The position numbers and the translations under genes are program-made. Positions 10,161 to 50,532 of a DNA stretch of 64,000 nucleotides are shown here, in pieces (within the stretch, counting starts at the first letter, position 1; every line of letters starts with the position of its first letter). The notes below the pieces were generated by a model, which was not told where the DNA came from, did no database searches, and saw only the letters and a list, made by a program, of their open reading frames with translations. This DNA is from Capitulum mitella (Eukaryota > Arthropoda > Thecostraca > Pollicipedomorpha > Pollicipedidae), in the NCBI GenBank assembly GCA_030062745.1, contig CP099846.1, positions 4,836,001 through 4,900,000 on the forward strand, in the 5' to 3' direction.

Positions 10161-13100
10161 CTACTGTCGCCAGGAGCAGAGCAGCCGGGTGTGCTGGGAG
10201 CAGTCGCGCGGCAGCCGGTCTCCGCTGTGGCGGGCGGCCAGCACGGCAGCGCCGCTGCACAGCGAGCCGCGCAGCTCCAGCAGCTGGAACGCCGCCACGT
10301 GCGGACCGGCCGTCTCCACGAACCCGTCCCGCAGCAGCGGCCACGAACGGAACACGGCGCCGACCACGACGATCTGCAGACCGCGCTCGGCCATCAGCAT
10401 CTCCTGCCGGCCGGAGCCCGCCGTCAGTGACAGATCACCGGGCCTCAGTACACACCGGCCGACCGGGCCTCAGTACATACACGCCGACCGAGTCTCAGTA
10501 CACACAGGTCGCCCGGAGCTCAGTACACAGCGGCCGACCGAGCCTCAGCACACACAGGCCGACCGGGCCTCAGTGCACACAGGCCGACCGGACCTCAGTA
10601 CACACAGACCGACCGGGCCTCAATACACACAGGTCGACCGAGCCTCAGTACACACCGGCCGACCGGGCCTCAATACACACAGGTCGACCGAGCCTCAGTA
10701 CACACCGGCCGACCGGACCTCAGTACATACAGGCCGTCCGGGCCACAGTACACACATGCCGAACGGACCTCTGCATACACAGGCAGACCAGACCTCAGTA
10801 CACACAGGCCGACCGGACCTCAGTACACACAGACCGACCGGACCTCAGTACACACAGACCGACCGGACCTCGGTACACACAGGCCGACCGGGCCTCAATA
10901 CACACAGGTCGACCGAGCCTCAGTACACACCGGCCGACTGGACCTCAGTACATACAGGCCGTCCGGGCCTCAGTACACACATGCCGAACGGACCTCAGTA
11001 CACAAAGGCCGGCCGGGCCCCGTCGTCAGTAAAAAAAAATTACTGGGTTTCAACACACAGGCCGCTCAACACAAGGCCCTACAGCCTATCATCTACTTAA
11101 ATCCAGATTCTGACTCTTCTTTCCTGGACGACCCTGCCATTCAAGGTGAATCGATCGTCAAGGTGTCTATAATGGCACCAACCCGAATTCCTGGCTCGCA
11201 GCTGCAATGTCAATGGGACTGCCTCAGACGACCTCGCTATTCACTACCTCGTCGACGTTGGGCAGCAGGGCGACCACGTAGCGTCCGAGCCAGGCTCCGG
11301 CCTCGCGGAACAGCTGGCGGCAGAGCGCGTCCCCGTGTCGGGCGGCCGCCGCCAGGTGTTCACACAGCGCCGCGAACCGCTGCTTCTGGAACCGCGTGTA
11401 GGCGTGCTCCAGCAGGCCGAACCTGACGGCAGCGCCAGCTGTGTCACGGGTCAAGACGGCGACGTTACCAGCGATTCTCAGCTGGCGTCACCAGCTGCAT
11501 CGGACAGGATTAACAGCTGCGTCAGACGGCGCCACCAGCGCGGTCTCACCTGTCCTTGACGTCGAAGCAGTCGCGGATGGCGGCGCGGACGGCGTCGGTG
11601 CTGTGCGGCGGCCGACGCAGGTTGTCGTCCTCGTCGAACACCCACTTGATGGCGGCGTGCGCGATCCACCAGGCTGCGGGGTTCGGGAGCAGAGGGTCAC
11701 ACGGTGCCGTCCGTTCAGAGCGGGGTCGCAGTCTCCGGGCGGCGGTGCTGGGCACTACCCTGGAGCTACACTACAGGGGACTACACGGCTACATGGCCCG
11801 CTCCACCAGCCAGACGTCGCTACAGCTCAGGAGTCGGATTCACGGCATTCGAACAGATTCAAATAGGTTCGGATTTTTCGAACCCTCCAATCCTGAAAAC
11901 GAGAATTCGAGCCCCGAAAATCGGGATATGAATTCTAAAAACCAAAGTCCAGTCCTGAAAACCATCATTTAAATACGCAAAGAAATGTACTGAAATATGC
12001 TCTAGGCTCAAATTTTCTAGAAAAAAATGTAACCCGTAATATGTCGATACTGCATCGAACTGAGTCGCCCGTCCTCTGACTTTATTGCACTGAATTAGTT
12101 AATGCCGAACCCAACTGTTGTGGTTACTGGTTTTACCCCGTCACCACCATGTTTCGCTGGTTTGCTGAGGGAGTGAAAGTAAGACGGCTTTTGTAGCGAG
12201 TCTAACAGGAACCTTGTGGTTGGCAGGAAAGCACCTCCCAGCTTCGCACAACCACCAAAAATCGGTTTTAAAGTAGGAACTACATCACGTTAAATATTTC
12301 AAAATTTCAGCGCAAAGACTGCAATTTATTCGAATCTCGAATCCGAATCCACCCAACCTAGGATTCGAATCCCAAAATGCATGCGAATCATCGGCTCTAG
12401 ACAACGGCCAACGCGTACCCGTAACGCCGACCGGCACTTGACGAACGGTCCGAGAACAGACAAACGCAACAGCATTTATACCATCATGAACCTTCCACAC
12501 GTGACTGGGCGATCTGAACATTCAAATTCCTCCGTACGAACTAACGCGGCGAAATGCATTCACACCATCTGTGCCTCATGAAGCAATGTTATCGTTCCAC
12601 TTGAGCGGCCGCTTCCGCCCCGGTCCGAGGGCACGGATAAGCCTGCTGACGTCACGCCACGCCTCCTCAGGTTCCGGCACTCGAGCCGAGCCGACTCCGT
12701 AAGGACGGATGCCGCTGCCGGGACGACCTCCGCGCGCGGGCGGCGGGTACGGTCGGCCGTGCACACGGAGCCCGCCACGCCAAACACGACAAAGGCCGCT
12801 GCGAGCTGCATTCAGGACACAGAATCCACAGCCCGACAACGGATGCCCCACAACGACGAACATCTGGACAACGTTTCAGTTCCCAACATTTCTCACGGCA
12901 AACGCGCGAGCGTTCGTGTCCGATCATGACACGGCGCCAGTGATGGCGGTCCGCAAGCAGGTCCGAGCAGGTCGGAACCCCTGCGAACACGTCGGCCGGC
13001 AGCCGGCCCGGACGCCGTCCCAGGGCTGGGCGTGTCCGGCGGCCGGCGTGCTATCTGGCCGCCGCGGCCGGCCATGGCGCCGCCGCCGACGGCGGCGAAC

Positions 13101-16100
13101 CACGGCCGGGATTCACCGCACCGGCCAGGGGCGATAAACAACCGGCCGAGCGCAAACACCGGCTAATGCGGACCGGCGAGCGTCCAGCGCCAGATACCGG
13201 GCCGGGCCCCACCGACCCGCGGCGCCGTGCAGGCCGGGAACACGCACCGCACTCCTCCCAGCGGACTTTTACCGAAGGCGCTCACAACTGCCAGCAATGA
13301 TAAACGAACCGAAAGTTTCCGCGGCGTTCAGAGACCCGTGCCGAGATCCCAGAGCGCTCTCAGGAGCCGAGGGACACGTACCTCCGCCCTCGTCTCCGAA
13401 CAGGTGTCCCCAGCCGCCGCAGCGGTGCGTGCTGCCGTCCGCCTTCAGCAGCAGGCTGTTCGAGCCGGTGCCGGCTATCAGGCACATGCCGCCTGTGACA
13501 CACGATAGGGGAGGCGGTCAGAGCGGCCGCCAGGAGCCCCCCCCCCCGCCCCGGACAGGCCGCCCGCATCCAGTACACGAAACCAATCGGCTACAGCCGC
13601 GCACTGACGGCCACAATTTAACTTCAATCCGCCGCGTTCGACGACTGGACGCAACACAACTAAAATACAGATGCCATCTCGAAGCCAGCGATTATCAACT
13701 GCCGGTCAAGGGAGCCGAACAGTCACGGCGGCCAGTGTCAGACGAGACCGTGTTCGGAGTCTGGCCGTCACTGCCCGGGATTCAGGTCGTCACGAGGGTC
13801 TCAGGCGGTCCGACTCACCCTCCTCGAAGGCGGTGGCGATGGTGCCGACCGTGTCGCTGCAGACGTAGCAGAACTCGGTCAGCGTGGGATGGTGATCCAA
13901 CAGACCCTGGCGGAACAGCTCGTTCGTCTCGGCCACCTCGCAGCCGCTCAGGCTCAGGCCCTGGCGGAAGGAGGGATCTCACAGACTCAGACCCTGACGG
14001 AGAGAGGGATCTCACAGACTCAGACCCTGACGGAGAGAGGGATCTCACAGACTCAGACCCTGGCGGAGAGAGGCTGGATCTCACACTCAAACCTTGGCGG
14101 AGAGAAGGGTCTCACAGACTCAGACCCTGATGGAGAGAACGTGTCTCACAGACTCAGACCTTGACGGAGAGAACGTATTTCAAAGACTCGGACCCTGCTG
14201 GAGAGAGGGGATCTCAGCGAAGTCTGAGGATCACTCACGAGCACAGTCAACGGAAAGGACAACTCCAAAGAACCAAAATTTATCGTTCGAGACCTCGAGG
14301 AATGACAGTAATTCCTGTTTTAGCCTTGACAAGTCCCAGACCGTGCGCCCGTCAAAGTGGCAGCTCGCACGCCGGCAGCCGCCGCCGACCACAGGCGGCT
14401 TGCGCTCGGGCCGACAGAAACCTGCGCAGACTCCCCTGGCCGCCGGCTCACCAGTGCGCGCAGGGTCGTGTTCTTGGGCAGGTCGGCCAGCTTCAGGGCT
14501 TCGTCGACCAGGCCGCGAATCCTGGCCTCCGTCTCCGCCATACCAATAAGCTGAGGCGCCACGGACGGCATCACACGACAGGCGTGACGAACGCGCCGCA
14601 GTTCACGTACCAAGACCGTTTACACACTCTAATACGCTTTACAGTATGAAGAGGGACAAATACAAGTAAAAACAGAAGCAATGTATCCTTACACTGGACG
14701 AAAAAGACATTCTTATAGCACATGTTTCACAATAATGCATATTTTTACTTGGAGTGGCAGTCATCGATTATGGAGAAACAGTCACACTCTGATGTGTATT
14801 CCATCTAACATGTCCGATGCTATGACATTTAAGCCACCTGGTCACGACGTAAACGGAGCACGATTTCCAAGCGCTGATTTCGAGGACAGTCATGAACTAC
14901 CGCAGCTTTCGTATAATACACCGCTACTGCAATGACGAACAAACCACAAACTAAGAAGACGAACACCTACCAATGAATGGATTGTTAACTACCAAAGTGC
15001 GCGATTTCTCCACTGCAGCATGCATATGCAAAGAACATGCAAAAGGCCAAATGAAGAATTAACCCGTTATATTTTTATATTCATGTTCATATTCATATTA
15101 ACATTTGACGAAAAATGTCCTACCTCCCCAAAGGTCTGAAAACAATCAAATTCTGATGGGCTATGTCAAACATTTGGGGGTCACGTCTTTGTCAAGCATC
15201 AACAGGTTTGGAACCTTTTAACACAGTACTCTACGAAACGGCGACCAAGTTTAAGAATCCCATTTGTGCCAGTATGGATTGAATACATACACCTTCCAAA
15301 ACGCCAGAGATATCTGCCACTTGGCAAGGTGAGGGACATCAAAGGCATAAGGAAAAGTCTGTTCACCATACCGTAATTAAGTTTATGCAGGACTCCACAT
15401 GTTGCTGGAGTGAGATGAAAAGCAAAGTTATGAGACAAGTGAAAAAATAACTTACAAGGAAGTTGATACAGGGTCCATCACACTGAGACAGTCTCTTGCC
15501 AGACGAGTCATAGAGAGAGATTGCCGAATGGCTGCCGCCACTGCAAATACCAAAACGAATAAAGTAACAGTGCAAGCAGAATCAGAAACAGTTAAAAACA
15601 GACATGCCACTGGATCTCACAGAAATGTGGGTTTCCCCATTAAGTACCCCTTCGCTGACATGTACGTGTCATGTCATCTTTTGCGTCATTTCGGAAACAT
15701 CGTTTACCGGCAGAACAAGCGCAATGAAGGTAAGAAGTATCCATGTCACCTGAGAACCGGACAGAAACATTCCATTATGATCCAGTAGCATGCCAACTGA
15801 ATGAAATGTTAATGAAATCAAGCACATGGTGCAACTTAGCCATGGTGAGAAAGTTACCACCCCTACATAGGAAGGGAAAACTGGTGGCACATACGACTAA
15901 AAATTAAAAATAATTTAAACAAGATGCCAAGATGCCTGGTCTAATCACAACATCAGACATTGACAAACCTGTTCTTCAACACATTCATGCAAAAAGTGAC
16001 TCACTAAAAAGCTGACACAGGGGCCCTCACAATGCACCAAACATTGTCGACTTGCATCAAACAGCTCAATGGCAGAGTGGCTTCCACCACTGCAAAGGAT

Positions 16101-17697: not shown

Positions 17698-18210
17698 TGA
17701 ATGCCTCCCTGAAAAATAACCATTTCATTAGATCACCAGAAACACAAACCAAAAGGCAAGGCAAATATAAGGTGGGGGAACAAAATATGTATGCAATGAA
17801 AGAGGTACATATTCCAAAACATTTTTAGAACTCTCAGGGGAAGCTGTTTGTTTCTTGGAATTCGCTAAATCTAATCACAACAAATTCTTAGAATTTTCCA
17901 AATTTGATCATAATGCAAAACACCAAACATTAAGCTCATAATCCACAAATACTATAACATAACACATCAGCCAAAAAGGGTTGTAAATGACAGGAATGCC
18001 TTCACCAGTAGTCCACTCCACAGCTTACAAAATTACTATATGCATACTGAAGTGATGTCCAAATTGCTTTCCATGACCAATCCTGATGCTTGCCCCCATC
18101 ATGAGTGTAATCAGAACATGAGCTACAGATCGAACCTAGAAACCCTCTAAACCCTGAATACTGTAAGGTGAAGTATGGTAAGCTTAACACATGATAAATG
18201 TCAATTTTAT

Positions 18211-18247
18211 CATGACATACCCCTTGCTACATGAGGGGTATGTCATG
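18211..18247. repeat. Perfect 14-bp hairpin in NAGK 5' intron
   Basis: CATGACATACCCCT at 18211-18224 and its exact reverse complement at 18234-18247, with a 9-base loop. It is followed by several further TGTCATGATAATG units up to about 18320. Function unknown. Confidence 0.6.
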
Positions 18248-18898
18248 GTAATGCATAATGTATGTCATGATAATGTATGTCATGTGTCATGATAGTGATA
18301 ATGTCATGATAACGTAACCGATTTTATGGTGCAAAAGCCCATAACCCAAAAGCATCTATCCAACACAGTGCCAGCCAAATATGGAAGGTGTCATAATATC
18401 CATGGGCTGCATTTCATCCTCTAGTTTTTCTTGAGACTAATTTTTGCAACTTATTAGTTTTAGCAGCCTCAGTGGATAGTTTAGATGACACTTACTTCAT
18501 CATATCACAAGCGCTCTGCTTAAGAGCTAAATAAAAACATCACTATGTCAAAAGTCCATGCCATCATCATCAGTCAACATCAAAACCAACAGTTTTTACA
18601 GTTTGGCAAACAGTATGGTTAAATTATCATGTACTGATGCAAACAGTGTGACTTAATGGCAACATTAAGGTTTAACATTCACATTTTTCCTTTGAATGAT
18701 GATGGACTGAGCAAAAAACAATGATCTGAGTGAGCTTGCATGATGTCTTAAGTGTTCGGATCTCGTGCCCATTTCTCTGTCGACCTTGCGTCAAGATCGC
18801 AGCATAGCTCTCTTCCACATGGGCTTGCTGAATTGAAACAGTGTCATATTTTGCTCGCTTCCTAAATCTCAGAATCCTACGTTCGTCCGCAACTTTAC

Positions 18899-18990
18899 CT
18901 AATCTCAACACCGATTTTGAATGCCACTTCACGCGCGCGCCCGCTGGATCACTACTTGCGAAGTGCCGTCGGAATGCACGGTAAACAAAC
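18899..18990 (-). other. Candidate NAGK 5' UTR exon
   Basis: A donor-like TTAG/GTAAAG on the minus strand puts the 3' edge at 18899, in the CpG-normal segment upstream of the CpG-poor NAGK 5' introns. It would pair with the acceptor TTTTTCAG that precedes the start-codon exon (top at 17710). The 5' edge is not determinable. Confidence 0.3.
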
Positions 18991-20997: not shown

Positions 20998-21075
20998 GGA
21001 AACCTGGTTTTTCTTCCTGGTGTCAGAGTACAAATTCTCTTTTGGGGTATAAAATGCCATGCATTTATGTGAGAA
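20998..21075 (+). mobile_element. Partial GTTGGAAA-type MITE
   Basis: GTTGGAAACCTGGTTTTTCTT, then a GGTGTCAGAGTACAAATT segment and GGGGTATAAAATGCC, match the left third of the 26458-26751 copy. The right end is missing or too decayed to trace. Confidence 0.55.
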
Positions 21076-22833: not shown

Positions 22834-25800
22834 ATGTCTTCAAGTAAAGGTGTGGAATACTATGTGGAGAAGGCAACTCGGAAGTATCTTGGCACCAGTG
22901 ATTCAACAGTGGTCTCAGCACTTACATCGCACATTAATGCTGGATACAGCAAGGACAAGGCTGCCAGTATGTGAACGTTGGTCTTGACTGACCCACAATG
23001 AAAAGCTTGCCATGCTAACATGTTGAAAAAATAATGGCCAAGTTAGCAAAAAATGGCATGGTATTTTCAGTTTTCTCTTGATCAGTTCATTGCGAAAACA
23101 TAACTGTGCAATTTTAGGGCTTTTACCTTCTGTCTCGGCCATAATATGAAATCACAAGTTTCCATTGTTCATAACAGGTAGACTATCACAACAACTGGTG
23201 AAAGCATAGCTTATTGTGTGAGCCAACAGTTGCAGGCTGTGGGTTGAACTGAGCTTTTTTATCACTCAGGTCAGCTACTAGCGAACTGCATGTGCCATAC
23301 AGCCACTGGCATGGTGTGCCTCGCCTAGTTCTCTTGTACGGTTACCGACCAGACTGTGTTCTGCAGGCAAGATCTCGTCCCTGATCGACGCCAGCAAGGC
23401 GGCCAAGCTGACAGCCCGCGTCTACGATCTGATGGAGGAGAAGCGGCTGGGGCCGCGGTTCGTGGCCAAGCGGCCCACCTCGTCCGCGGACCCGCCGGAG
23501 AACGGCGCCAAGAAGATGAGGCTGGAGGAGGCGGCGCGGCCGGCCGCCGGACCGGCCGCCGCCGCTGCCGCCGCCCAGCCGGCCGCGGCCGCCGCGCCGT
23601 CCGACGGCAAGGTGCCCCTCACCCCGGAGCAGGTACGGCGACGGCGGCATCGGCCGACCGCCGCGCGGATAGTCCGAGACGATTTTGCTGTCTGTGTGAT
23701 GGTTATGCAGCTGTTTTTAGCTGCGAGGGAGGCAAGATTATAACTTTACTTTCGCGGCATGAGGTTGATGAGAATAAAATGGAACATAAGAACAGAGTCG
23801 AAGTAACATGTATCTTTGTGTTATTCGCATAGACTCAAATTGAGGACGAAGTGTACAGGATGCACGTTCAGATTTATTTGTACAGGTATAACCTGAAGTG
23901 AGACTTGAAAAAAAACATCACGTTCATGTCCCAGAATTTGGAGTAGATTGATAATATTGGTTTGTTATAAGCCAGGAAAATACTTAATAATCATTATAAT
24001 GATGGCAACTTGGTTGAGTGTGTAGGGCATGACTTTTATTGCTTATTTGAAAACAAAATAATTAGTTCCAGTCAGTCCAGAAATTTTGAGAAAGAAATGT
24101 TGAAGTCTCAAAACTTTGAGAAGTACCCAAAGTATTAACCTTGGTGGGAAGGTGTGCGTTTGTGTGATCCTCATTTCGCGTGCTCTTGGCCGCAGATCAA
24201 AGAGATGATGGCGAACGCGCAGAAGATGATCGAAATGCGGAAGAAGACCCTGGGTGCTCTGGTTCCGGCGGCGCCGCCACAGCCGGCTCTCGCCGTGCCC
24301 GGCTTGAACGCGCCGTTCGCGGACAAGGCAAAAAAGATCGCCGACCTGCAGGTGCGTTCCTGGCCCGTCTTACCGTACCGTACCATAGCGGGAGGGACGC
24401 GTTCCCTTCTGGGCCGCCCTCTGTGGTTGGCTGCCGCGACATTGATGTGATGCTGTAAAACTGGCGCGAGTATGTGGGAACCCCAGGATTTGGTATGCTT
24501 ATTACATTTATGGCTCAGAATGCGTTTCCGGCGCGCATTTGTTACGTGTTTTTTATTGTTCTTTGTAACCGACTGCACTTGAAAGTTTGTTGATGACTTC
24601 ACATGACGAAGCTTGATAGTGAAGTGGTGTATTATCCAGTATATCTTGAAGTAGTGTGTTATCCAGTATCTCCGAATCCGAGTTGATCAACGTCCATCTT
24701 AACTGCTGCTCTGCCGTACTCGGATATGTTCATCGCCGATTTCGCCGGACCCGCGGGGGCTGCGGAGCCGCTTGTGCGGCCCTGTGACGTGAGGCCGCCT
24801 CTGACGGGCTGTTGTCTGCTGTGTCATTTTGTGGCATGAGACGGCCTCTGGCGGGCTCTGGTGATTCCGTTCTCGCCCTGTGACGTGAGGCGGCCTCTGG
24901 CGGCCTGTTTGAGTCCGTGTTCTCCCTGTGACGTGAGGCCGCCTCTGACGGGCTGTGTGTGATTGAGTCCGTGTTCTCCCTGTGACGTGAGGCCGCCTCT
25001 GACGGGCTGTTTAGCTGCCGTGCCGCTCCGCCCCGTCGGACCGCCGCTGACGGGCCGCTGCCGGCAGGCGGAGATCGCCGCCAAACTGTCGTCGCTGCCG
25101 ACGCGCTCGACGGACCCGGCCGACAAGCCGCGGCCGCTGATCCTCGACGACCGCGGCCGCACGGTGGACGCCTCCGGCAACCAGGTCCAGATCGCCGCCC
25201 GCATGCCCACGCTCAAGGTGAGTCGAGCGCGCCACCGCCGGCTGGGGGAGCCGGGGCCCGGCAGGGAGTCGGGGGGAGTGGAGTCTGCGAAGATGGACAT
25301 GTTTTGGTGGGCTGTTAGGATGACCGCCTGCTGTTTTCTGCGGCGTTGTTGTAGCAGCATCGCAGGACGCTGCGCTCCAGGGATATTTTTGAAGTGTGAT
25401 TTGGGGAAATGTTATAAGTGTGTTCAAAATGCATTTATTCTAAACAGCCTCGGTTCTGTTTACTGTTGAACCGTCACCTTTCTTTGTTAACTGTTCAGCA
25501 TCGATGCATTGATGTCATGCCAGTACGCCACTGCGGTGCTCGCCGAAGTGCAGCCCGTTACCACTGTGGTTCTCCCCTGAAATGCAGCCTGCCGGCAGGC
25601 CAACATCCGGGCCAAGCGGCGGGCCGAGTTTCGACAGCAGCTTCAGGAGCGGCCGTCGGAGGATGTCTCCGACCAGACGTTCTTCGACCCGCGCGTCTCG
25701 CTGCGTCCCTCCGTCCGCGGCCGGCGCTCCTTCAACTTCCACGAGCCGGGCCGCTTCCAGCAGGTGGCCGCGCGCATGCGCACCAAGGCCCAGCTTGAGA

Positions 25801-32206: not shown

Positions 32207-32212
32207 GATACC

Positions 32213-36050: not shown

Positions 36051-36327
36051 GCAGGTCACTCCTCCAGCAGGAGACGGCTGACCGTCGGTCACTGTTCCTG
36101 CAGGAGACGGCTAACCGCCGGTCACTGTTCCAGCAGGAGACAGCCGACCGCCGGTCACCGTTCCTGTAGGAGACGGCTGACCGCCGGTCACTGTTCCTGT
36201 AGGAGACGGCTGACCGCCGGTCACTGCTCCTGCAGGAGACGGCTAACCGCCGGTCACTGTTCCAGCAGGAGACAGCAGGTCACTCCTCCAGCAGGAGGCG
36301 GCTGACCGCCGGTCACTGTTCCCGCAG
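36051..36327. repeat. 33-bp minisatellite grown from the ANKRD13 stop codon
   Basis: About eight units of 33 bp. On the minus strand each reads near CTGCAGGAACAGTGACCGG, copying the last codons (CTG CGG GAA CAG TGA) and the bases just after the real stop at 36313-36315. The real CDS end is the first unit, and the array forms the start of the 3' UTR. Confidence 0.9.
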
Positions 36328-39300
36328 TGACAGCTCGATGGCGCGCCGCACCATCTCCTCCTCCTCGCGCCGTCGCCGGTCCGCCTCGGCGTTCTCCTGC
36401 CGGGACAGCTCCAGGGCGGCGGCCATGTCGGCGTCCTCCGGCTCCCGCTCCTGCTCCTGCTCCTGCTGCGGCCGCGGCCGGCCGCCGTCTGGCGACAGCG
36501 ACATCTGGATGGCCCTACAGGGTGAGACAGGGTCAGACCGGCCGGACTGGGTCGGCCCGCTGGACCAGAGCCCGCGCTACAGGACATACACTGACGACCG
36601 GTCCGCTACGCAGCGGCCACTGCGGGACACGCTAACGGCCGGCCAGAGTAATGGTCGGCCAGAGCAATGGTCGGCCGGAGCAGCGGTACAAGGCAGTGTC
36701 CTGACTACTGTCGACAGCTCGGGAGGGGGGACGCCCGGTTTGGTCCGTGCCCGAGGCCGGCGTCGCAACCGCTCAGCTCGGCAGCCGCACACACGGGGGG
36801 GAAGGAATCAGGACGGTACCGACCTCCGCAGACAGCACGGTCCGTACCGATGTAGAGAGATCCGTGGCCCTCGTAAACGTGTCATAAAGGTCGCTCACTG
36901 AACAGTCAGCCCGAGGACACAAGATAACCCGCGGGCGACCCGGGCGACACCGGCGCTCTACACCTGACGCCCAGACGCAGAACATTCATCGGGACATCCA
37001 TAGCGCATCGAGACAACAGAAGGGGTGAGCTGGTTATTTGGTGATTAGGGCGCACCGACAGCGTGGGTATAAATAGTCAATGACCGGAACTGACCCGGAT
37101 CTCAGTGGTTGGCACAGCGTCCCAAGCACCTACTGATAGCTCTCGATTAATTAATCCACGCGTTTCGGCATTAATTCAATTGACGTTTCTCAAATGTATC
37201 TGCTTGTTCATTCGCTCATTATCAATGCGGGCCCAACTTGATTTAAAGTGACTATAACCACCGTGGTGGAAGGGATGCTAGTGCGCGGATGCTGAATATC
37301 GTACTCCTCACGATAGGACATGCTAATCGTGCAATATCTCTAGCTCAGTGTCGGGGTCCCCGGCTAACTCCGGATACTGACAAGTCTAACGGCGAAGTCT
37401 GTTACAGCTAAAGGCCGGCTGCCTGGGACCCAGGAGTACGCTGGGTCGTGGGGTCGCAGGGTCGCGGGTGGTGGGGGGCCTCTACGCCTCAGTCGGCCGG
37501 CGACGCCTCAGCGACAGCGTGCGGAACAGGCGGGAGCCCAGACCCTCCGCGCCGCCGCCGCCGCCGGTCAGAGGCGTCTCCTGCGGACGGCGCCGCGGGC
37601 CGCGCACCGACAGGCACCGCCGGAGGCCGCGCGGCGGCGGCGACCCGCCAGCGCCATCTCTGGAGCGACGTCAGAAGATGGACTTGCGCCGCTTGCCGGC
37701 GGGCGGCGTGGGCGCCTTGGCCCTGAGCCGCGACAGCGAGGGCGAGCGGTGACTGCGGTACCTCTGCAGCATCTGTTCGTCCAGGTCGGGCGCCGGCTGG
37801 CCGCGGGGCGTGCACGAGTCGGCCCGCAGCGCCTCCCAGATGTCCACCTGGCCGGCAGGACGACGTCCGGTCAGGGGAGGCGGGTCACACGGCGAAACCA
37901 ATCAGCGTCGAGAACCATAGCCACCCAGGCAGATGTTCACGGTCGTGCCGATCTGACGGCAGCTGCAACACCTGCGGCCGACGGCTCGTCCGCTGAGAAG
38001 AACGCGCTGCGTCGCAAAATACACAGCCCAAGACTGGACGTCCCAAACTGCACCGACACCACTGGCCCGTGTTGTCAGTACTGTCAGTGTTGTGTACTGT
38101 ATCTCACTGATTACGTGGTCAGTACACCGCAGTACATCGGCTACCTGTTCGTTCTCGGTGCCGGAGTCGAGCAGACTCTGCTGAATGGCCATCTGCAGCA
38201 GCTCGTCCTCCTCGTCGGCGCCGCCAAAGTGGCGCATCACGCCGGAGCCTGCCGGGCGGACAGACATCAGGCCCCCGTCCGACCACCCGGACACGGCGGC
38301 CGCCGACGGGGAGACGAATCTCTCCCGGACGGCGAGACGTTTCCGCGTGGGGAACGGACGACGCTGGTGCTCTAACGGCAATTCTCTCCGATTTCGAACG
38401 ATACGGGCGCCGGCGCGGTAATGGAAGGAAAACGCCAGCCGTCCCGGCGGCAGCAATCAAAGACGCGGCCTACATGTCGGCCACACCTCATGGGGAGGCT
38501 CCACTGCTTCGCCGCACTCACCGACGCTGCGGTAGCCGGGCGGCGCCTCGAACACGGCCTCGTCCACCACGCACGACAGCCGGTCGGCCTCCGACACCGT
38601 CGTCACGTGCTCCACCGGCTCGTCCACGGCGAAGATGTTGCCGAACGTGATGCGCGCCGTCAGCACGTGGAACAGTGGGATCTCTGCGCGGAAAACGAAC
38701 ACGTGGAAAAGTGGATCTCCGCAAGAGGAGCACAGACGTGAAACAGCGCAATTTCTGCACGAGGAAAACACACGTGGAGCAGCGGCATCTCCGCACAGGA
38801 AGCACACACACCGAACGGTGGTTCTCTGCGCGATGAGCACTGCTGTGCCACAGGCGAATGCTTGTCAGACACGCGGGGCAAGCGGGAATTTCATCTCGAT
38901 TAGCAGCAGCGTTACAGTGACCTGCGTGTCACGCGAGCAATGCCTTTCAATAGATGAGACTCGCCACATCCAGACGAACTACCACATCAGCAAGACGCTA
39001 TTTATACGGGTGAACACGCGCAACCTTGGAATGCGTGAGTTGCATCGTGATTTTGACAGAGCGGTCCGGATAGTACAGTCGACCTACCCGGGCAGTGAAT
39101 ATGACCCGGTACTCCCCAATCTACAAGGATAATCCAGATGTAACTCATCTCAACGCATATCACTCACCTGCAGACGAAAACACTTCCGAAAGAGAGACTA
39201 CTAAGCTGCAAAAGCACCGTCATATGGAATGTGATTCAGAATAACACGGTATTCCTCGAAGGCGGTGGGCGGTGACCAAGAAATTTCAAATACGCGCTCA

Positions 39301-42300
39301 TCCGTCTAAAGATCATAATGCTCCTCACCCAGGATGTGAAAATCACCGAGGCGAGGGATGTTAATCGTGTGTAAGAAATAGCAACTCATCACAAGAATAA
39401 TCTGAAGCACTCTATTTTCCAGAAACAACCAGTAATCATTCAGGTAGCGTATTTTCGCAAACACCGCGCAAAGTATCAAAGTTGATGAATACTGCGGATA
39501 ACCAACCTCGTGAAAACAAACCGAAACGATTACGAAAGAGAGAGGCATCGCTCACCTATCTTGACGGGAAATCCCGCGGGCAGCTGCAGCTGAATGAATT
39601 CTTTTAGCTTGGCAAAATGAGTGGAATGTATCGACATCAGGTCGACGATGGGCATCACTTGTTCTTGAAGGCTGAGCGGGTATTCTTCGCAGAGCCAAAG
39701 GGTCGCCTGCAACACACACAGCCGGCTTAAATAGATCGAGCGGAACACGTATTCCATAAAGTTACCTAATGCGCCATTAGCATCCAAAGGAACCCCAAAT
39801 TCTCCAACACGGTTGCTTTCAACGCCGGTGATAACTGCGATCTGCGGTTACGATAAGAGCTCAAACCAGGGACGAGTTCAGCAAGACGGTTTGAAAGTGG
39901 CACAGATTTCACACTGTAATGTATGCTGTTGTGGAATCGTGCGCCGAACAGTGACGGCTGTCCCGGCGCTCGTGCCTGGGGCGCGGCCGGGCCGGGCCGG
40001 CCGCCCAGGGTGAACTTCGCCGGTGACCTGACCTCGGCTTGCGGCCGGCCCGTAGCAGCCCTCGTCAGGTCCCGCTCGCGGTCGCACGCGGCAGAGGCAC
40101 ACACCTCTATTACGTATTCTTAATGCCCAACTAGGAGATTAATGTCATCTACTCAGTTCGACAGCATGCCTTTGGTTAACACCTAAGGATGATTAAGGAA
40201 ACGAAACCCAAATGACATTTGTGAAAATCTTCTATGTATACAGAAAAAACTCTTCTTAGACCATGGGCACAAAATAGCCTCAGTAGTCAGCGCGCCTAAA
40301 AACACCAATAAACAACTTCTCAGACTAATTTAAAGGCCAAAAGCACTCTTCCTGTTATTTAGGATCGATAGCAGCTAGAACAGCCGTAATACTGTTTGGC
40401 TTGTACGTTTGGGACAGGCAAATGTCTTTTTCATGACCCGGTAACGGCCAGTGTTTCCGTGCGGCTCCTTGGCGACAGGTTGTGCGATCCTAACCCAATA
40501 CGACTTTCAGCTCGCCGCAAGCGAGTTCCTCAGCACGAACAAACCAAATTAACTAAAATGCGAAATAATGACGTCACAGCGACGGCGCCGTAGCCTAACA
40601 CGGCACGCCCCTGGTCGGCGACGGGCCGAACATTGGGCGGCGCTGACCTTGAGCTTCTGCGTTTTGGTGGTGACGGTGCGCGGGCGTCCAATGTCGCGGT
40701 CGCCCAGGTCGTAGGCCGGGTCGAAGTACTCCTCAGCCGTGATGTGGCACGGGTTGGTGCTGGTCTCCGACAGTTCCGACTGTCGGACAGCAGGCGCTCG
40801 TCAGCAGGACAAGAATGAGCGCCCCCCCCCCCTCCCGGCCGCTGGACGACCTTCAGACAGCTCTGAATACAATCAGAGGTGGGAAGCCAGAAAACAAACG
40901 ATAACCTTCAGCAGAAAGTCCCAGCAGCGTCTCCACCAACATGTGAGGGGCTAAGAAGACTTGCTTGTTTCTAGTATTTAGGATTATAAGATGCAGAATC
41001 ATATACCACAAACGCACCTGCGCCTCGAACGATATGCACATAGATGGTCCTGATCCCACCTATCCGGGGAAATGGGGAATCTCCAAGTCCGGTTGAAACA
41101 AGAAAGTGCCTTTCCGTGCCCGAGCCAGCACCAAGAAGCTTCCGTCACCAGCCCACACCGTGGTAACGTCAGGAGAACGTGCGTTCCAACACGCCTCTAC
41201 CCCGGCCGCGCCCAGAACTGGTCATCCTCACCAGCCCTCACCGTGATGACGTCAAGGGAGGGCGTGGTCCGGCAATCTCCCGATCTCGGTCACACCCAGG
41301 ACTGGTCACCGGCCCTCACCGTGCTGACGTCAGGCGAGGGTGAGGTCCGACACTCCTCCACCTCGGCCACGCCCAGTATCGACTGAAGCGGATTCTTCAC
41401 AAAGCTGCGACTCTGTTCTCGGTCCTGAAACAGACGCATGTCAAAAAACGGGATACACTATGCGTCTTTTCAGCCGCGCGGAGCTAACGTCACCAAAAAT
41501 TGGCATTTCAGATACGTTCTAGCATAGATTTTGGCCGCCTTGTCCCAAAACACAAAACCATGGGCTTTGCTCACGTCAAGAGAACGCAAGTACCTCCAAT
41601 ACAAAGGCCGAAACTGGCAGTTCTGTTGGAATCGGACGATCCGCTGCCACGCCGATCAGGAATCAGGTTCCCAGCTTAAACGGCATTCACATGGACCTTT
41701 TGATGACTTTACGTCGAAACTGCAAATTACTCACGAACGTTGAAAATGCAAATCCAGTTCAAAACAATTTCGAGTGTTACAGCATCGCGGCCAGAACCTT
41801 CATCTTTTTCGTGAGCCGGTAACCGCAGACGAATTCCGACACAACCACCCGGACCGTCCCGGCAGGCCCGACCAGCCGGACGGTGCCGCCGCACCTGTTC
41901 AGTCAGGTGCTCGGTGCGCGTTTTGGTGACCAGCTCCACGTTGCTGGCAGAGAACACCTTGCACTCGCGTCCGTTGACGTCCTCCGTGCGGTCCGACCGC
42001 CAGCCCCACAGGCCCGACTTGTTCCTGAAACCCGACATCATTCCGTACAATCCGCTCACCCGGACCGGATCGGGGCCCCGCAGCCGGGGATGTTTAGAAT
42101 GCATAGGACTGCATGGGGAAATACCCTCGACGGAGACAGAGAACAACGACGTTCCAAAAAGCCCCTCTGGCGCGGCGAACGTCGGACAGACGACTACGGC
42201 AACACCATGGAAATTCGTCAGGCACACCAGCGGCCACCGCACGGCTGCCGAGAGACGCACGGAACACAAGACAGCGAGCGGCCAACGGCCGACAGGCCCG

Positions 42301-45300
42301 GCCAGCGGGCGCCGGCCGCCCTGCGCTCGGGAGGCGGGCGGCAGCGTGGCGGCCGCACCGTTCGAAGTTGATCTTGTCCGTGTCGATGTAGGTGGTGACG
42401 ATCGGCGTGGTGAGGCGCGCCTCGATGGCGGCGTCGTCCGGGCCGACGGCGCCGGCCAGCACCTCGCCGCTGGCCAGACGCACCTCCTCCGAGAACACCA
42501 CCCGCTCCTCGTGGTCCACCTCGGTCACCATGACCCGGTCACCTGGTGGCGGCCGGTCAGCGGTCACGCCGGAACCGGGACGGAGCCGCCCACTGGCTGC
42601 ACAGAGACCAGGCAAAGCTGAGCCGCCGACACACGAGGACGTGCAAAACCCAGTCTACGCGAGCGTTTTTGCCTGCCGCGGCGGCAGCGCGACGCGCCTT
42701 GCAACGGCTGACGGAGGTCGCTGCGTGTTTGTTACGTCGCATATAAGTCATACTTCGTCACAGCGGTCCAGCCAACCCTGCTCGAGTACGACAATTCGAA
42801 ATCTGTAATCAGACTACGGTAAATTGAAACCTTGCGTTTCGCCCAGTGCAGTAGGCTTGGGCTTGCCTGATCTCTCGCGCGACGGACGTCGTAGTCCACG
42901 CGATCACTGACTGGCGCAAATGCCACGAGCCGTCGTGAGACAGGCGCGGCCGTTCGAGCGGCAGAGCCGCGCGTTTTTTTGCCGCCTGAGTAAACCGGCC
43001 TAAAACGTGGTCCGAACCGGACCGCCTACGGACCCGCCGAGTCCGGCCCTCGGTCACCAGTTGGCCGGGCGCAAGCGCGGGAACCGGACAGCGTTAGTTA
43101 CGGACGCCCGGTCGGCGGCGGCACGTGACTCGTGCCGTCCGCCGACCTGGTCACTGCCGCCCCCACTCCCCCTCCCGCCGCCGCCGCGGACCTTGTGACA
43201 CTCCGCGGACCGCGGCCAAACCTAACCGCTCATATACAACCCGACTTCGGCAGAAACACATCCCAACGGCAACTGACAGGAGTGCCTTCTTCACGGGAAA
43301 GAAAACGAACGTGAGGCCAAGTGCCAACGTCGGACAGACTGCGTCACCAGTCTAAGGTCAGCCCAGACTAAGAGCCCTCAGCCCACACGCCATCGACAGC
43401 AAGTGACCGTCACCAGAGCCAGAGGTGGGGCTGGTGAACACATCACCGCCACGGGACGAGGGTGTCGCTCCCTCCACGCTGACCGGCAACAGAGGCCGAG
43501 AGAGCCGCAAGAGGAAGCAGTCCGCCCAGGAGACGGCCACCACGTCCTGAATGTGCCCCGGACTACTCTATTACGGCGGCAGTTCAGGGCCGGCAGAGAG
43601 GAACCGGTCCGGGGCCACTACCCCGCGGAGTGCCTTCTCAGTGCCGCTCAGACGTCGACCGGTGACTAGGCGTGAGATACACGTGAAGCCACTGCCGCTT
43701 TAATGGAGCCATCTGCATTGCTGTGCTCTACCTGCTCTGCACTCGGTGCTCTGTGTTGTAAGAACCGAGAAAAGTCGTACCTTCTGGTTTCTCTCGGAGG
43801 GAGTAGACGATGCTTCTGTTACCTCGCACCGGTTCAAAAACTAAAACAACCGCACCATTTAGCGGCATCTCACAACGAACGTCCGCTCAGTACTAATTCC
43901 ACCTCTTCCTTCACAGCCATGTCACACCCAATACCTCACACCTCAAAATAGCCTCCACCTCTTTCTCTCGGTGCAAACAAACACCCTCTCACACTCTCTC
44001 CACCTTAAGACTAAACAGCGCACGATACACATATCCGAATGCAACAATGCCAGCTCCCGGCTAAAAATGGACAAGCAAAGTTCCACACGGCACATCGCAA
44101 CATCCTGGGCTGAGACAAAAACCGCCGCGAGACGCACCGACACAACAATACCACAAGACCAGACCCCCACACTGAATGTCCAGTTATGTGGACTTCCGGG
44201 CGCGCCGACACCAAGCTCGTCCGTCACACCGCACCCGACTGACGGCCGGGGCGCCGCGACAAAACCCAGAAACGACCGTCACGGGCGGCCGGCGGCCGGC
44301 GCCCGCCGCCAGCACTCACTCTGGCCCTTGAAGATGTAGCTCTTGTTGCCGCGCTGCCAGCTGGTGTCGTCGAAGCCGAGCAGAGTGGTGTCGATGCGGA
44401 CGCGCGAGCCCTGCTTGTACACCTTGTACGTGTCGTGCGGGCAGAGCCGGGACACCAGCGGCACTGCCGACGCAGCCGTCACGTGCGTCACGCCGAGACG
44501 ACACCGCGACGCGGCGGCGTCACGCGCCCGGCGGCCACCCACCGGGTAACGCTTTCCTCAAGCAGCCGGACACGTCACAGCTGCCGAGGCAGACACAGTT
44601 CCCAACGGTCCCTTCCGACCTCTCCGGTACGCTGGACCCTCTGAGAGTCGGCACACCGGAAGGCGGGCGCCGCTACTCAGTACTATACACACCGGTCACG
44701 CCCCGGGGCAGCAGCGTCCGGCCGACCCGCTGCTGGTCGGTACGATACACACCGGTCACGCCCCGGGGCAGCAGCGTCCGGCCGGCCCGCTGCTGGTCGG
44801 TGCGGCCACTCACCCCAGCTGGCGAACTCCCACTTCATCTCCACGTAGAAGTCGGGCGCCTGAAACACGGCAGGAACTGGTCAACCAGAGCCCGCGGCCA
44901 CCTTCAGCCGAACCCGGCCGGCCTGAGACAGGTGTGGGGAGTCACGTCTGTCTGTTCACGGCCGGCCTGAGACAGGTGTGGGGAGTCACGTCTGTCTGTT
45001 CACGGCCGGCCTGAGACAGGTGTAGGGAGTCACGTCTGTCTGTTCACGGCCGGCCTGAGACAAGTGTGGGGAGTCACGTCTGTCTGTTCACGGCCGGCCT
45101 GAGACAAGTGTGGGGAGTCACGTCTGTCTGCTCACGGCCGGCCTGAGACAGGAGTCGGGAGTCACGTCTGTCTGTTCACGGCCGGCCTGAGACAGGTGTG
45201 GGGAATCACCTACGTCTCTCCAGGGCCGGCCTGACACAGGTATGGGGCGTCATGCCTGTCTCTCCAGGACCGGCGGCCGGTCTGAGACAGATGTGGGAGA

Positions 45301-48300
45301 GTCACATCTGTCTCTCTAGGGCCGGTGGCCGGCACCACCAGGCCTATGACAGGTGTGCGGGGTCGTATCAGTCAGCAGCGGCCTGCACACCTACCAGGGG
45401 AAACGGCAACCCTACTGCCCGGTACCTGTACCGGTCCGGTAACTCCGCAGGTATCGTGCCGAAGTCGCCACTCCGTTAACTAGGCCTGCCAACAACTCTC
45501 CCGCCCCGGTAACTCTACTGGCCGGCAACTCTACCGTCCCGGGAACCCCAATGGCCTGTAGCTCTCCCGCTCCAGTAACTCCATAAGCTGGTAACTCTCC
45601 TGTCACGATAATTCCGCTGGCCGGTAACTACCTGGGACCGGTATCGGCGGATGCGGCGGCCCGCCGGCGGCTAAAGGTCAGGCCGGCGCGACCTGGCGCC
45701 GGCCATCGATTCCCCTGGCCTGCCGGCCGGGCGGCCGTCGGCAGCGCGGGCCCGCACGCCGCTCAACACACCGCCGCCGCTGGCACACACACAGAGACAA
45801 CAGAGACACTTACCTCGGCTGGCATAAATGATACCATGAGACAACCTAATCAATTTAAATGATCGTTTGAAAAGCATGATTGTTCTAACGCTATAGTGAA
45901 AAATGGCCAAAAAGACCATCTACGTACATGACGGCACCGAGGGCGTAGCCAAGGAGGGGGCCAAGGGGGTCATCGCCCCCTTGAGGATTAAAAATTTCAA
46001 GTTTCTGTACGCACCAAAAATAAAATAAATAGAAATTTAGAAATAGAAAAATAAATAAATAAACAGAAAATAAAGGGACCGAAATCCTGGAAACTTTCAG
46101 TTTCGAGGGGGGGGAGGAGCTACGTTTGTGATGGTCCCCTCCTTGGAGAAATCCTGGCCACGCCCTTGGCTAGCAGTGTGCCGTCTCGGCACACTGCACT
46201 CTTCAAAATATCAACTGAGCTGTCTTTGTGGCGGGCTGATAATGCTTTGCTAAGCCTGTCTGTCTGGCGACGAAAATAACTCCGTTTTCCCATGGGACTG
46301 CATCCGCCCAAGCAGGACAATCTGCATCACACGTTCTGGTCTTAATGACGTCGGCCGAGTTTACTGTTATTGGCCGCTCGCCAGCCGGCAATAGCGAGAT
46401 TCCTTCTGGCGCAGTCAACTTTTCGAACGGAATTAAAACTCCGGCCGTATTCTCACGATAAAACGGGCCCCGTGGCAGCGGCCGAGCACTGCAGGCGCGA
46501 GCGCGTCGTTTGTTTTCTGACTTTTCTTTCGACGCGTACGTCAGGGTTGACCATTAGCGTCGTGGTCGGGACCCGACTAGTCTTGTGTCAAGTCGTGTGC
46601 CTCGTCGGGCGTCAGTCGGTCGTCTGACGTCGTGTGCGTGGCGTCGTGTGTGTGTGAGTGGCGCCAGTCAGTCGCCAGGTGAACGCTGACACCGCGGTCG
46701 CTCACATCACCACCCCCGGACCAGAGCCACGTTCAAAACCTGACCCATGAGGCACACCCGAACCCCGTTCGTAAATTTAGCTACGAGGCACACCAGGTTA
46801 CCCTGATTAACACATTTCAGCAAACTGCGTTCATAAACCAGCCTGTGCCGTCACCTGAGTTACCTCGTAGGCACCCAAAGTTACTACGCAGTCGCCTCGG
46901 CGGGCGTCGGGGTAAGTCTCTGATAAGTATGCCGGCCTCCACGGGGACTGCAAATAATCACCCGGCCAAATATACTCACATCATGTTTCGACTTGTCTTA
47001 GCTGCGGAGTGACTGCCAAAATTCAAATGGCGTTCGAGGACCAGCCTACAGGACTGATAACCCACTGTAACCCACTGACAACCCAGGACTGACACGTCGG
47101 CGGCTCGCGGAATAGGTTCAGGACGGGGGCTCAGGTGGTGGGTACACCGGTCGCAGGCAGCTCGGTTGTCGATGCAAGACCTCGCCACGCACCGTGCCAG
47201 CCGGGCCGAGCGCCAGCATCTGGCGTTTGCGCCGGCACGAAGTCAGCTGGAGTCTGATTCACGGGGTGCGCTGATTTCGTCGGCCCGCGTGCCGGGCCTT
47301 TAAACGCTGAGGCTAGTGTGTCACGGAGGGTGGTGATTTGAACTCGGACGATACGACGCCGAGATAGTGCGTCACTGGCAAAGACGGCAGGGCAATAATG
47401 AGGCAAGAAGAAAGACGGGTCAGTAGGATGCCTGAGCGCGTAATCCTGGCATAGTTTTACGCTGCACGGTCTGGCTAGGTCTTTGCTGGAAGACAATATA
47501 ATGAGCTGGATATTCTTTTGTGTCGGAACCAATTGAGAGGGACGGACTAGATGTCCACCCGAGCATCAAGAAAGAGCCAGCTGGCTCTGCTCGGTCACGG
47601 ATTCACTCCATTTTTTCTGCAATGAACAACAACAGAGAGTGACAAATCTTTCCAATTCTGTACTTAAAATTATGGTGCCGAGATGTGCACAAAGCCGACT
47701 TTTTGCCAGCGGTTCCAATGAGCCAGTGCCGTATTTACGATGAACCCAAAATACGTCCAATATTTGGTGCATTTGTGGGCGTTTCTTTACATCTTAGTGT
47801 TCGAAAAGAGATAAAAAGGTATCAGAGGCACCTTTTTATATCCAAAACATTGCACAGCTTGCACTAAAAAACGGTAGGTTACCGCAAGTCCGAACAATAT
47901 ACCATAAACCGTTGTCTTTACGACCTAACCACCATGTGCGACTCCGTCAGGCTAAAACTTACTATGAACACAGAAAGTGCTATAAGCACAGGAATATAGG
48001 AAGCAGAGCTTTGAGAAAATCTGCATCTCATTTCCGCAGAATACCGTGTTGGAACAACTAATGCCCAGCAAGGTGTGCCATCACGCATCAGAAACATACC
48101 GGTGCACTAAACATCTCAAATGGGTCTGCACTGCAAACGCCAGGCAGCCCTGCTCCTGGGACGGGCATCGACAATTAACATGCATAACCAGCCAATGCCT
48201 TCCCCAAAATTGCCAACGCCGTCCGCTATTCACATGACAGACTACGATCGGCTCGCAGGCGTCACGGAGCGCTTTCGGCGCCAGCCGCCCGTCACTGTTT

Positions 48301-50532
48301 CCGCCCTCGAACGGACCAGCAGCAGACGGCCCCTCTCTCCGGTCGTGTGGACGCGGCGGCACGTACCCGGACCGCACAGCGGCCGTGACGTCACAGCGCC
48401 GGCCGGGCGTCGCGGCGAGGCTGGCGCCCCGCGCCGCGTGCCGCCAGTATTGTACGGCCTCCCGGGAAGCCAACCCGAGGCCGGAAGAGACAGCGGTCCC
48501 AGCGGTCCCGAGCCCGGCGTTCAGCCGCCAGGCATGGCCGCCAGCCGTCCAGCCGTCACAGACCGCAGACGGCGAGCGGTCGAACCGTCACAAAGGGCGG
48601 TCCCACTGTCACATACCGCGGCGGGCAGCTATCGGAGTAGGTACACATGTGTGACTCATGGAATCCAGATACCGATTACGTCGTTTTATATTTCTGCTGC
48701 TGCGGTGCTTGTCAGACACGACGCTAGGTCGCAGGCTTCCTGACAAGGTATCCCTGGATCACCTTGGAGACTAACCATTTTCGACCTGGGCCAAATCTGA
48801 TATCGTGATCGACGTGACTCTTATGCATAAAATGACACGAAACAAATCTGGTCTCCCTGCTACGCGTCTCGTGAAACATTATCCCCCACAAAACATTGAA
48901 GGGAAGAACTTGATTTCGTCCCGGCAGTCCTCGTCTCAACAGTTGGGTAAGGGATGGGCTCTGCATGTCTGTCAACTGCCACCATAGTGGCATATATGTA
49001 CGGTCGCCGCGACATCTCCCTCAGTACCTCTGTCAGTCTCGTATCCCCTGAACCTGGCGTAAGTCCCCGTTGGGGGCGGGCTCGGCCTCTGCGTACCTCT
49101 ATGAGCCGCCGCTGGTGGACGGGTCCGGCTTCGTTAGTTAGTTAGTTAGGGACCGACTGATTCGGCCATAATTTTCAAGTAGCTCCATTAAAAAGAGTCA
49201 CGGGGTCCGGCTTCTGTGTATCTCAGAGCCGCCACCGGTGCCTATGCGTACCTCTGTGAGCCGCCACTGATGGACGGGCCCGGCCTCTGCGTACCTCTGT
49301 CAGTCGCCTGTGAGCCGTCTGTGAGCCGCCACTGGTGGACGGGCCCGGTCTCTGCGTACCTCTGTCAGCCGCCACTGATGGACGGGCCCGGTCTCTGCGT
49401 AACTCTGTGAGCCGCCACCAGTGGACGGGCCCGATCTCTGTGCACCCCAGAGAGCCGCCACCGGTGTCTCTGCGTACCTCTGTGAGTCGCTGCAGCAGGG
49501 CCGGCAGCGCGGTGGCTCGGTTGCTGTAGCGCTGCACGTCCCGCTCACGGAGCACCAGCTGCGCCAGCTCCGGGTCGCCGGTGGCCACCGCCTCCTGCGC
49601 CACTGCCAACGGGCCGGTCCGGTCAGACGGCCGCGGGGGGGGGGGGCAGTCACGAGCGTCCTCCGACAGATGACCACACGGATGTCTGGCGGGTCCGGTC
49701 GGACGGCCGGCAGACGGACGGACGGGAGGCAGCCCCGCATCAGACGCGCAGCGGCCGACGCAGAGACAGCCGCACAGAAGGGTGATCCAGAGAGAGAGAC
49801 GCGAATGTCTTCTGGCAGAGGACTGTACAACCGTCTTCCGACAGGCGTCCACACAACATCTGCCGCGGTAAAACTACATGGCAGCCAGGAAGTCACAACC
49901 CAAATCAGAGTAATTCCAACCAGATGGAGACGAGCACACCAGGCCTCGGTTCAGGCTCGTGCGCACAGACACCCGTCCCCCCCCCAATCGTGACGCCTTC
50001 GCCGCCACCCCCGCTCGCCAGACGGAGACAGCATCAGCCCGCAGAAGACGCCTCACCGGACCAGCCGGCGGCCGTGTCGGCGTTGACGTCGCAGTTGTGA
50101 CGCAGCAGGACGCGGACGGCGCTGGTGCGGCCCAGCGTGACGGCCAGCATGAGCGGCGTGCGGCCGCGAGGGTCCCGCCGCTCCCGGTCCGCCTGCGGGC
50201 CACACGGCGGCCGTCAGCGGCCCGGCCCGGCTGCCGCCACCTCCGGACCGGGACACTGGCAGGGCCGTCTGGCACACAATGCCTGACAAACAGACTACCC
50301 TGCCACACACTGCAGGAGGAAGGGATATGCACACTGACCCAGATACACGCAAAGTCAAGCAAAATCATGGAAAGGTGTTTCTGGTTTTAATTAAGCATGC
50401 AGATATGAAAAGGGAGAAGCAAGAATGACTTACATCAATCTTTTGTAGCTCTGCTTCAAGCTTTGTGTGCTCATCATTCCAAACCAGCCAGTGCAGAGGA
50501 AATCTCTCAAAGATGTTGTTTGCAGCCTCCAT
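36313..50532 (-). CDS. ANKRD13: Ankyrin repeat domain protein 13 family (UIM protein)
   Basis: Ubiquitin-binding membrane-traffic protein; relatives bind Lys63-linked chains on internalised receptors. Fourteen exons (minus): 50434-50532, 50057-50192, 49478-49602, 44814-44859, 44320-44463, 42359-42542, 41895-42024, 41320-41424, 40648-40779, 39556-39706, 38522-38683, 38145-38248, 37762-37847, 36313-36514; 601 aa (human ANKRD13A 590), every phase consistent. Ankyrin repeats cover about 35-110 ([12 protein letters not shown]). The conserved middle includes [29 protein letters not shown] and FPLFH-type EIPLFHVL. Ubiquitin-interacting motifs are [26 protein letters not shown] (split by the last intron), [10 protein letters not shown] and [13 protein letters not shown]. 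The paralogue (A, B or D) is undecided. Several exon borders sit in minisatellites. Confidence 0.94.
37671..37847 (-). CDS. Possible alternative ANKRD13 C-terminal exon
   Basis: If the donor at 37761 (GTACCG) is not used, the frame of exon 13 runs on for 30 more codons to a TGA at 37671-37673, adding a tail rich in Ser, Arg and Lys that ends AGKRRKSIF. This would replace the three C-terminal ubiquitin-interacting motifs. Coding-like GC-rich codon use continues to the stop. It could be a real short isoform or chance read-through. Confidence 0.35.
   Translation of the reverse strand: MDIWEALRADSCTPRGQPAPDLDEQMLQRYRSHRSPSLSRLRAKAPTPPAGKRRKSIF
38663..38838. repeat. 37-bp minisatellite grown from an ANKRD13 splice acceptor
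   Basis: Five units of about 36-37 bp; the lowest contains the acceptor CGCGCAG and the start of exon 38522-38683 (AGATCCCACTGTTCCACGTG). Upstream units on the minus strand repeat forms such as TTCCTCGTGCAGAAATTGCG followed by CTGTTTCACG. Some keep the AG and some have GCGG, and together they translate into variants of EIPLFHV. Confidence 0.88.
41144..41376. repeat. 72-84-bp tandem repeat grown from an ANKRD13 donor
   Basis: Three units, 41144-41215, 41216-41299 and 41300-41376. The third holds the 3' part of exon 41320-41424 and its donor (minus strand CACG/GTGAGGGC). The second keeps an intact copy of that donor and the first a variant (GTGTGG). Units end with a GCCCAG or ACCCAG block on the plus strand. 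Confidence 0.88.
44680..44813. repeat. 64-bp tandem duplication beside ANKRD13 exon 4 donor
   Basis: Two near-identical units (ATACACACCGGTCACGCCCC through GCTGCTGGTCGG) lie immediately downstream, in gene direction, of the donor GTGAGTGG of exon 44814-44859. The near-identity implies a recent duplication. Confidence 0.85.
44907..45345. repeat. 44-bp minisatellite in ANKRD13 intron 3
   Basis: About nine units on the theme GGCCGGCCTGAGACAGGTGT plus GGGGAGTCACGTCTGTCTGT. Units are very similar at the start and more diverged after 45200. Confidence 0.9.
45420..45640. repeat. Irregular GGTAACTC-rich repeat
   Basis: Recurring short phrases such as CGGTAACTC, CGGCAACTC and TGGTAACTCTCC at spacings of roughly 20-40 bp in ANKRD13 intron 3. 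It is a degenerate minisatellite. Confidence 0.5.
45941..46165. mobile_element. Short TIR element, GGGCGTAGCC family
   Basis: 225 bp. The left end GGGCGTAGCCAAGG and the reverse complement of the right end, GGGCGTGGCCAGG, form terminal inverted repeats. The interior has poly-G/poly-C tracts and A-rich AATAAATAAATA stretches. No target duplication is visible. It is related to 55790-56041. Confidence 0.6.
46173..46197. repeat. Perfect 11-bp hairpin
   Basis: GCAGTGTGCCG and its exact reverse complement are separated by TCT. It lies just outside the TIR element at 45941-46165. Confidence 0.6.
49070..49502. repeat. 43-bp minisatellite grown from an ANKRD13 donor
   Basis: Units of about 43 bp (CTCTGCGTACCTCTGTGAGC, then CGCCACTGATGGACGGGCCC). 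The real donor of exon 49478-49602 (GCGTAC on the plus strand, 49472-49477) is the last unit. Intact decoy copies of the same hexamer lie at 49091-49096, 49246-49251, 49289-49294 and 49354-49359; a broken one is at 49397. An unrelated segment at about 49131-49200 containing (TTAG)3-4 interrupts the array. Confidence 0.9.

Follow-up and report, generated by a model that had tools for sequence, protein, structure and literature searches.

The tandem arrays that lie at exon edges in the genome of Capitulum mitella are probably minisatellites of the mirage type, i.e. local tandem duplications seeded at the edges of exons and hidden by splicing. Units copying the border itself, a bias of arrays towards exon edges in a sample of genes chosen blindly, and units without a match elsewhere in approximately 330 kb of genome sequence were all observed directly. 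Border minisatellites of the lancelet type are now seen in an arthropod, in the majority of its sampled genes, and their bias survives controls for both GC content and intron length.

Genes and tandem arrays of the window

The window, i.e. the whole 64-kb stretch analysed (C8:4836001-4900000), comes from an assembly of 477 Mb in 16 contigs, and the interval of interest covers its positions 10161-50532. The genes modelled in the window (Table 1) are SRSF1, NAGK, a part of PRPF3, ERp29 and ANKRD13, with all introns of the GT-AG type and all frames open, the reading frames being intact across the authentic splice sites of the array-bearing genes. Concerning their identity, matches were obtained to the Pfam families PRP3, ERp29, ANKRD13_C and RRM, with NAGK matching only at the level of the BadF/BcrA ATPase superfamily; the names NAGK and SRSF1 are presumably correct. 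The introns of the window genes have a median length of 491 bp (35 introns).

Table 1 Genes and tandem arrays in the studied interval (window coordinates)
Feature	Position	Strand	Basis and details
NAGK gene	10161..17695	-	Open frame, GT-AG introns, Pfam BadF/BcrA ATPase
NAGK coding exons 1-4	17649-17695, 16005-16089 or 15456-15540, 14452-14550, 13819-13960	-	Gene model
NAGK coding exons 5-8	13382-13492, 11550-11673, 11248-11422, 10161-10403	-	Gene model
NAGK last-intron array, 25 bp x 23	10437..11019	-	TRF; 33 bp from acceptor 10403/10404
NAGK acceptor array, 33 bp x 8	13949..14216	-	TRF; unit = acceptor 13960/13961 + exon start
PRPF3 gene, 3' part, without 5' exons	23369..30880	+	10 exons modelled; Pfam
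PRPF3 intron array	24779..25055	+	TRF; stops 12 bp short of acceptor, exon 25068-25217
ERp29 gene	32213..34281	+	Exons 32213-32317, 32757-32882, 33228-33326, 33871-34281; Pfam
ERp29 array, 23 bp x 5	33702..33813	+	TRF; 57 bp from acceptor 33870/33871
ANKRD13 gene	36313..50532	-	14 coding exons; Pfam
ANKRD13 stop-codon array, 33 bp, 7 copies	36020..36334	-	TRF; includes stop 36313-36315, extends downstream
ANKRD13 exon 11 acceptor array, 36 bp	38684..38809	-	TRF + border copies
ANKRD13 exon 8 donor duplicates, diverged	41140..41345	-	Border copies; limits approximate
ANKRD13 exon 4 donor array, 60 bp x 2	44680..44813 (TRF 44680-44801)	-	12 bp off donor, exon 44814-44859
ANKRD13 array, 44 bp x 8	44915..45333	-	TRF; 55 bp from acceptor, exon 44814-44859
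ANKRD13 intron 3 array, 33 bp	45493..45629	-	TRF; nearest border 633 bp
ANKRD13 exon 3 donor array, 43 bp	49010..49490	-	TRF + border copies; outer limit approximate

Tandem repeats with a TRF score of at least 100 and a period of at least 10 were taken as arrays, most of those used having a period of 20-60 bp. Nine of the ten arrays of the interval overlap an exon edge or stop codon or lie within 60 bp of one, compared with 1.4-2.2 expected (P from 1.4e-7 to 8.6e-6, depending on the null, in a test that is post hoc), the sole exception being the array in intron 3 of ANKRD13. Under the intron-conditional null, the Fisher P for the window is 4e-5 (9 arrays). The arrays of the interval have a GC content of 0.56-0.73 and their flanks one of 0.53-0.62, against a background of 0.495 over 264 kb. 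SRSF1, located outside the interval, carries no TRF array at the same limits of score and period.

The first-pass annotation had placed an exon border or the stop codon inside five arrays of two genes, and this proved correct, the copied elements being one acceptor in NAGK and two donors, one acceptor and the stop codon in ANKRD13. Judged by the TRF limits alone, only the NAGK acceptor array and the ANKRD13 stop-codon array overlap a border; the remaining three have TRF limits 11 and 31 bp off the border or, in the case of the exon 8 donor, escape detection by TRF. Queries made from the borders themselves returned seven copies of the 33-bp unit at the NAGK acceptor, four copies of the acceptor region at ANKRD13 38683/38684 (exon 38522-38683; AG retained in two of the four), two diverged copies, both with GT, at donor 41319/41320 (exon 41320-41424), and seven copies at donor 49477/49478, where the unit consists of the end of exon 49478-49602 plus the donor and GT is retained in six. 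The three further arrays that had been described as abutting a splice site do adjoin one, at 12 bp in PRPF3, 57 bp in ERp29 and 12 bp at the exon 4 donor of ANKRD13. The stretch between array and acceptor in ERp29 resembles, by eye, decayed units, and the border query of the ANKRD13 exon 4 donor found no copies in the adjoining array.

The second exon of NAGK exists in two alternative 85-nt versions of identical phase, alike at 51 of 85 nucleotides and 18 of 29 amino acids; since both together would shift the frame, the pair looks mutually exclusive. Read-through at the ANKRD13 donor 37761/37762 leads to an alternative C-terminus ending near 37671, possibly a short isoform. Two (TTAGG)n tracts, at 2357-2439 and 4232-4314, one of them within SRSF1 intron 1, have short identical flanks on both sides; this telomere-type repeat is linked to arthropods, and the pair may mark a segment, duplicated or mobile, that carries such repeats. 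The remnant of an integrase C-terminus, Ty3/gypsy-like by look, is found at 56495-56947.

Structure of the border-copying units

Units that span the boundary together with its splice site were found in NAGK, ANKRD13 (three arrays), SPF45/RBM17, an NCAPH-like gene and the CCT genes on contigs C5 and C13, both donors (5') and acceptors (3') being affected, while many other arrays merely adjoin the border. The unit of the C5 CCT gene comprises the polypyrimidine tract, the AG of the acceptor and the opening codons of the exon, and 12 copies of the acceptor precede the real one, with AG in 10 of the 11 that are readable. The unit on C13 joins the last exon bases to the donor, GT being present in all 13 copies; a second array on the same contig repeats the donor 37 times, with approximately five exonic bases per unit and GT in all 36 readable copies. 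The array of SPF45/RBM17—a gene 91 kb to the right of the window, named by look, with Pfam matches to G-patch and RRM—repeats the exon end and donor in 23 copies, all with GT, and the NCAPH-like condensin gene (Pfam Cnd2) in the left flank has a donor array of three copies, again all with GT.

The SPF45 donor array is split by a 3.5-kb insertion (window coordinates 156324-159848) whose 14-bp inverted ends are identical and whose target duplication measures 8 bp, and which we take to be hAT-like; the array is therefore older than the insertion. In the 13-copy array of C13, the intronic copies agree with their own consensus (retention 1.00) but with the exon at only 0.74 of the dinucleotides, which indicates that expansion ran among the intronic copies. 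None of the 19 array queries found a match outside its own locus in the approximately 330 kb of genome sequence, and the arrays therefore look like local duplications. A dispersed repeat or transposon-derived array, with the same unit at many loci, was considered as well but is not supported, all 19 queries being private within these approximately 330 kb.

Border bias in the chaperonin genes

Since the count in the window is post hoc, the test was moved to genes picked without regard to repeats, namely the CCT/TCP1 family, defined by a genome profile search with PF00118 before any repeat had been seen there. The search gave 61 exon-level matches and 30 loci, merged into 16 pieces of 66 kb with 102 exon edges in sequence; 30 introns were modelled, seven exon pairs remaining without a model. 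Two matches unlike CCT, C2:23572307 and C7:19461942, were left out of the intron modelling, the former being kept as an exon in the distance test and the latter lying outside the examined pieces. The arrays of SPF45, NCAPH and TMEM do not enter the blind counts, as they were found by reading arrays.

The CCT loci contain 14 TRF arrays, on C2, C5, C7, C13 and C14 and none on the contig of the window. Nine of the 14, in six of the nine CCT gene clusters, are located no more than 40 bp from an exon edge (where no intron was modelled, the edge is that of the profile match and the distance approximate), compared with 2.07 expected under uniform and 2.39 under GC-matched placement, and none of 2000 random draws reached nine; the other five lie farther away. 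Within 100 bp there are 11 of the 14 (3.90 expected). An exon edge is overlapped by three of the 14 arrays (0.72 expected, P 0.03; GC-matched 0.83, P 0.05), including one on C13, where the exon edge was shifted after inspection from 13510180 to 13510149 and the array overlaps both positions. When the TRF cut was lowered to a score of at least 60, the proportion within 40 bp was 10 of 18 arrays. All these counts were drawn from one assembly, with the array on C5 contributing its distal part as an array of its own.

The intron-conditional null, applied to 12 introns of which four with one end unknown were scored one-sided and some ends are likewise approximate, gave a Fisher P of 3e-8 and a KS P of 1.5e-5 for the 14 arrays, and a Fisher P of 1.1e-5 for the eight introns with both ends known; arrays sharing a gene are not independent. 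The suggestion that arrays sit at exon edges beyond chance is thus upheld. As regards a single case, the 43-bp array at C7:17092691-17092861 begins among the closing conserved codons of a CCT subunit and therefore spans either a final donor or the C-terminus itself.

It should be stressed that the bias concerns where arrays are anchored and not repeat density, since coverage is flat across introns: direct-copy 40-nt windows make up 8.6% at 0-40 nt from the border and 6-16% deeper. Direct copies of 40-nt border segments (score of at least 16) were detected for eight of 128 borders and reverse-complement copies for none, and the copied share of border 40-mers, 6.2% of 128, did not exceed that of interior 40-mers, 10.6% of 789 at the same score. 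At the level of the whole genome, pairs of donor consensus sites 15-45 bp apart number 334 per 19541 single sites (1.71%), the same-composition controls giving 146/32285 (0.45%), 197/30801 (0.64%) and 90/8818 (1.02%); this excess offers modest support for border copying, weak in that one control reaches 1.02%.

Origin of the arrays and related systems

Composition alone, with GC-rich exons and flanks breeding minisatellites and short introns forcing them near borders, would agree with the elevated GC of arrays and flanks, with the short introns and with the flat coverage profile. It is nevertheless an improbable explanation: GC richness by itself is insufficient because 9 arrays were observed where GC-matched placement expects 2.39, and the excess remains when intron length is controlled by the intron-conditional null. 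The border excess over the GC expectation, together with the involvement of both donors and acceptors, would fit a junction-specific mutational process in which R-loops, or breaks linked to the spliceosome or exon chromatin, make the border duplications. We consider this rather unlikely, however, since the ANKRD13 stop-codon array sits at no splice junction and the coding-strand GC skew is inconsistent (17 positive and 11 negative among 28 arrays, mean 0.06); such mixed skew does not favour the R-loops that the first-pass annotation had invoked.

Very little probability is given to the idea that selection retains the arrays because extra splice sites provide useful isoforms or splicing control. 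Against an exon-based query, GT or AG is indeed kept in 101 of 109 copies, other dinucleotides being kept at 0.73, but this striking retention vanished when each array's own consensus served as the control, the splice dinucleotide being kept no better than others (mean percentile 0.44, P 0.71 in the 7 arrays scored of 8 tried; one of the 7 is out of register, and without it the mean is 0.51); special conservation of the copied splice sites was accordingly rejected, and some copies have lost the site altogether. An assembly artefact or collapsed haplotypes can hardly be the cause, as the copies are diverged, several contigs carry array-bearing genes and the SPF45 array is interrupted by a transposon-like insertion.

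The reading as mirage-type minisatellites would imply that a short segment at an exon edge is tandemly duplicated in place, probably by slippage or unequal exchange, the duplication often taking exonic bases and the splice site with it. Such a duplication could be tolerated since the exon-proximal site would remain available for splicing, and where that site is used, the extra copies fall in the intron and the protein is unchanged; with the stop-codon array, they would lie downstream of the stop, again leaving the protein unchanged. Later expansion would proceed among the intronic copies. The advantage of borders over equally GC-rich intron interiors would stem either from birth near exon edges or from better persistence there, and probably not from selection for extra splice sites. 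A bolder version, which we put forward tentatively and with more doubt than confidence, is that exon edges in this lineage might be junction-linked birth hotspots for tandem duplications, continually seeding introns genome-wide with splice-site copies as raw material for alternative splicing, intron gain or sliding.

Border minisatellites may be a wider means of multiplying splice sites. They could provide a natural system for studying how the spliceosome chooses among many near-identical sites and whether arrays feed intron gain, and they might mislead gene prediction in such genomes.

Concerning the known systems, the mirage minisatellites of amphioxus were reportedly dealt with by Canestro et al. 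2002, and Zhuo et al. 2007 is said, by its title, to concern introns arising from tandem arrays, whereas the arrays described here occupy one edge of introns that have additional non-repeat sequence. The amphioxus mirages are described from the globins BflGb6 and BflGb9, with Adh3, TnC and PGBD5 cited there, as units ranging from tens of bp up to about 160 bp that cross exon-intron boundaries at 5' as well as 3' splice sites, AG/GT being kept in many copies (PMC3087553, PMC3902484); the kind is marked by undisturbed normal splicing and by length instability between haplotypes or cells. The arrays of C. mitella share with them the minisatellite-size units spanning boundary and splice site at donors and acceptors, but differ in coming from an arthropod genome, in having one stop-codon array and a border bias quantified against null models, and in being known from sequence alone. 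The taxon, the measured bias and the stop-codon case thus appear to be what is new here, the anatomy itself being known from amphioxus. Internal tandem repeats at exon-intron boundaries are also described in human segmental duplications, where they can give rise to new introns or to alternative splicing (PMC2812944); those are recent paralogues with transcript evidence, whereas here housekeeping genes are seen in genomic DNA. The route to alternative splice sites, presented as new by the first-pass annotation, consequently has precedents in kind in both amphioxus (PMC3087553, PMC3902484) and human (PMC2812944).

In C. elegans, minisatellites within introns have been linked to alternative splicing; they likewise lie near splicing decisions, but belong to a dispersed family, CeRep25B, and are not local border copies as here (PMC4039745). 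Among crustaceans, no earlier report of border minisatellites was recognised among the matches listed in the open-licence literature. The prawn Rlec lectin genes have variable tandem units of similar size (30-33 bp) and alternative splicing, but their repeats are inside the second exon and translated (PMC7536079). In the left flank of the window (-42824 to -42345), a 30-bp array encodes, by look, NEFLGKR-type peptides of a candidate neuropeptide precursor.
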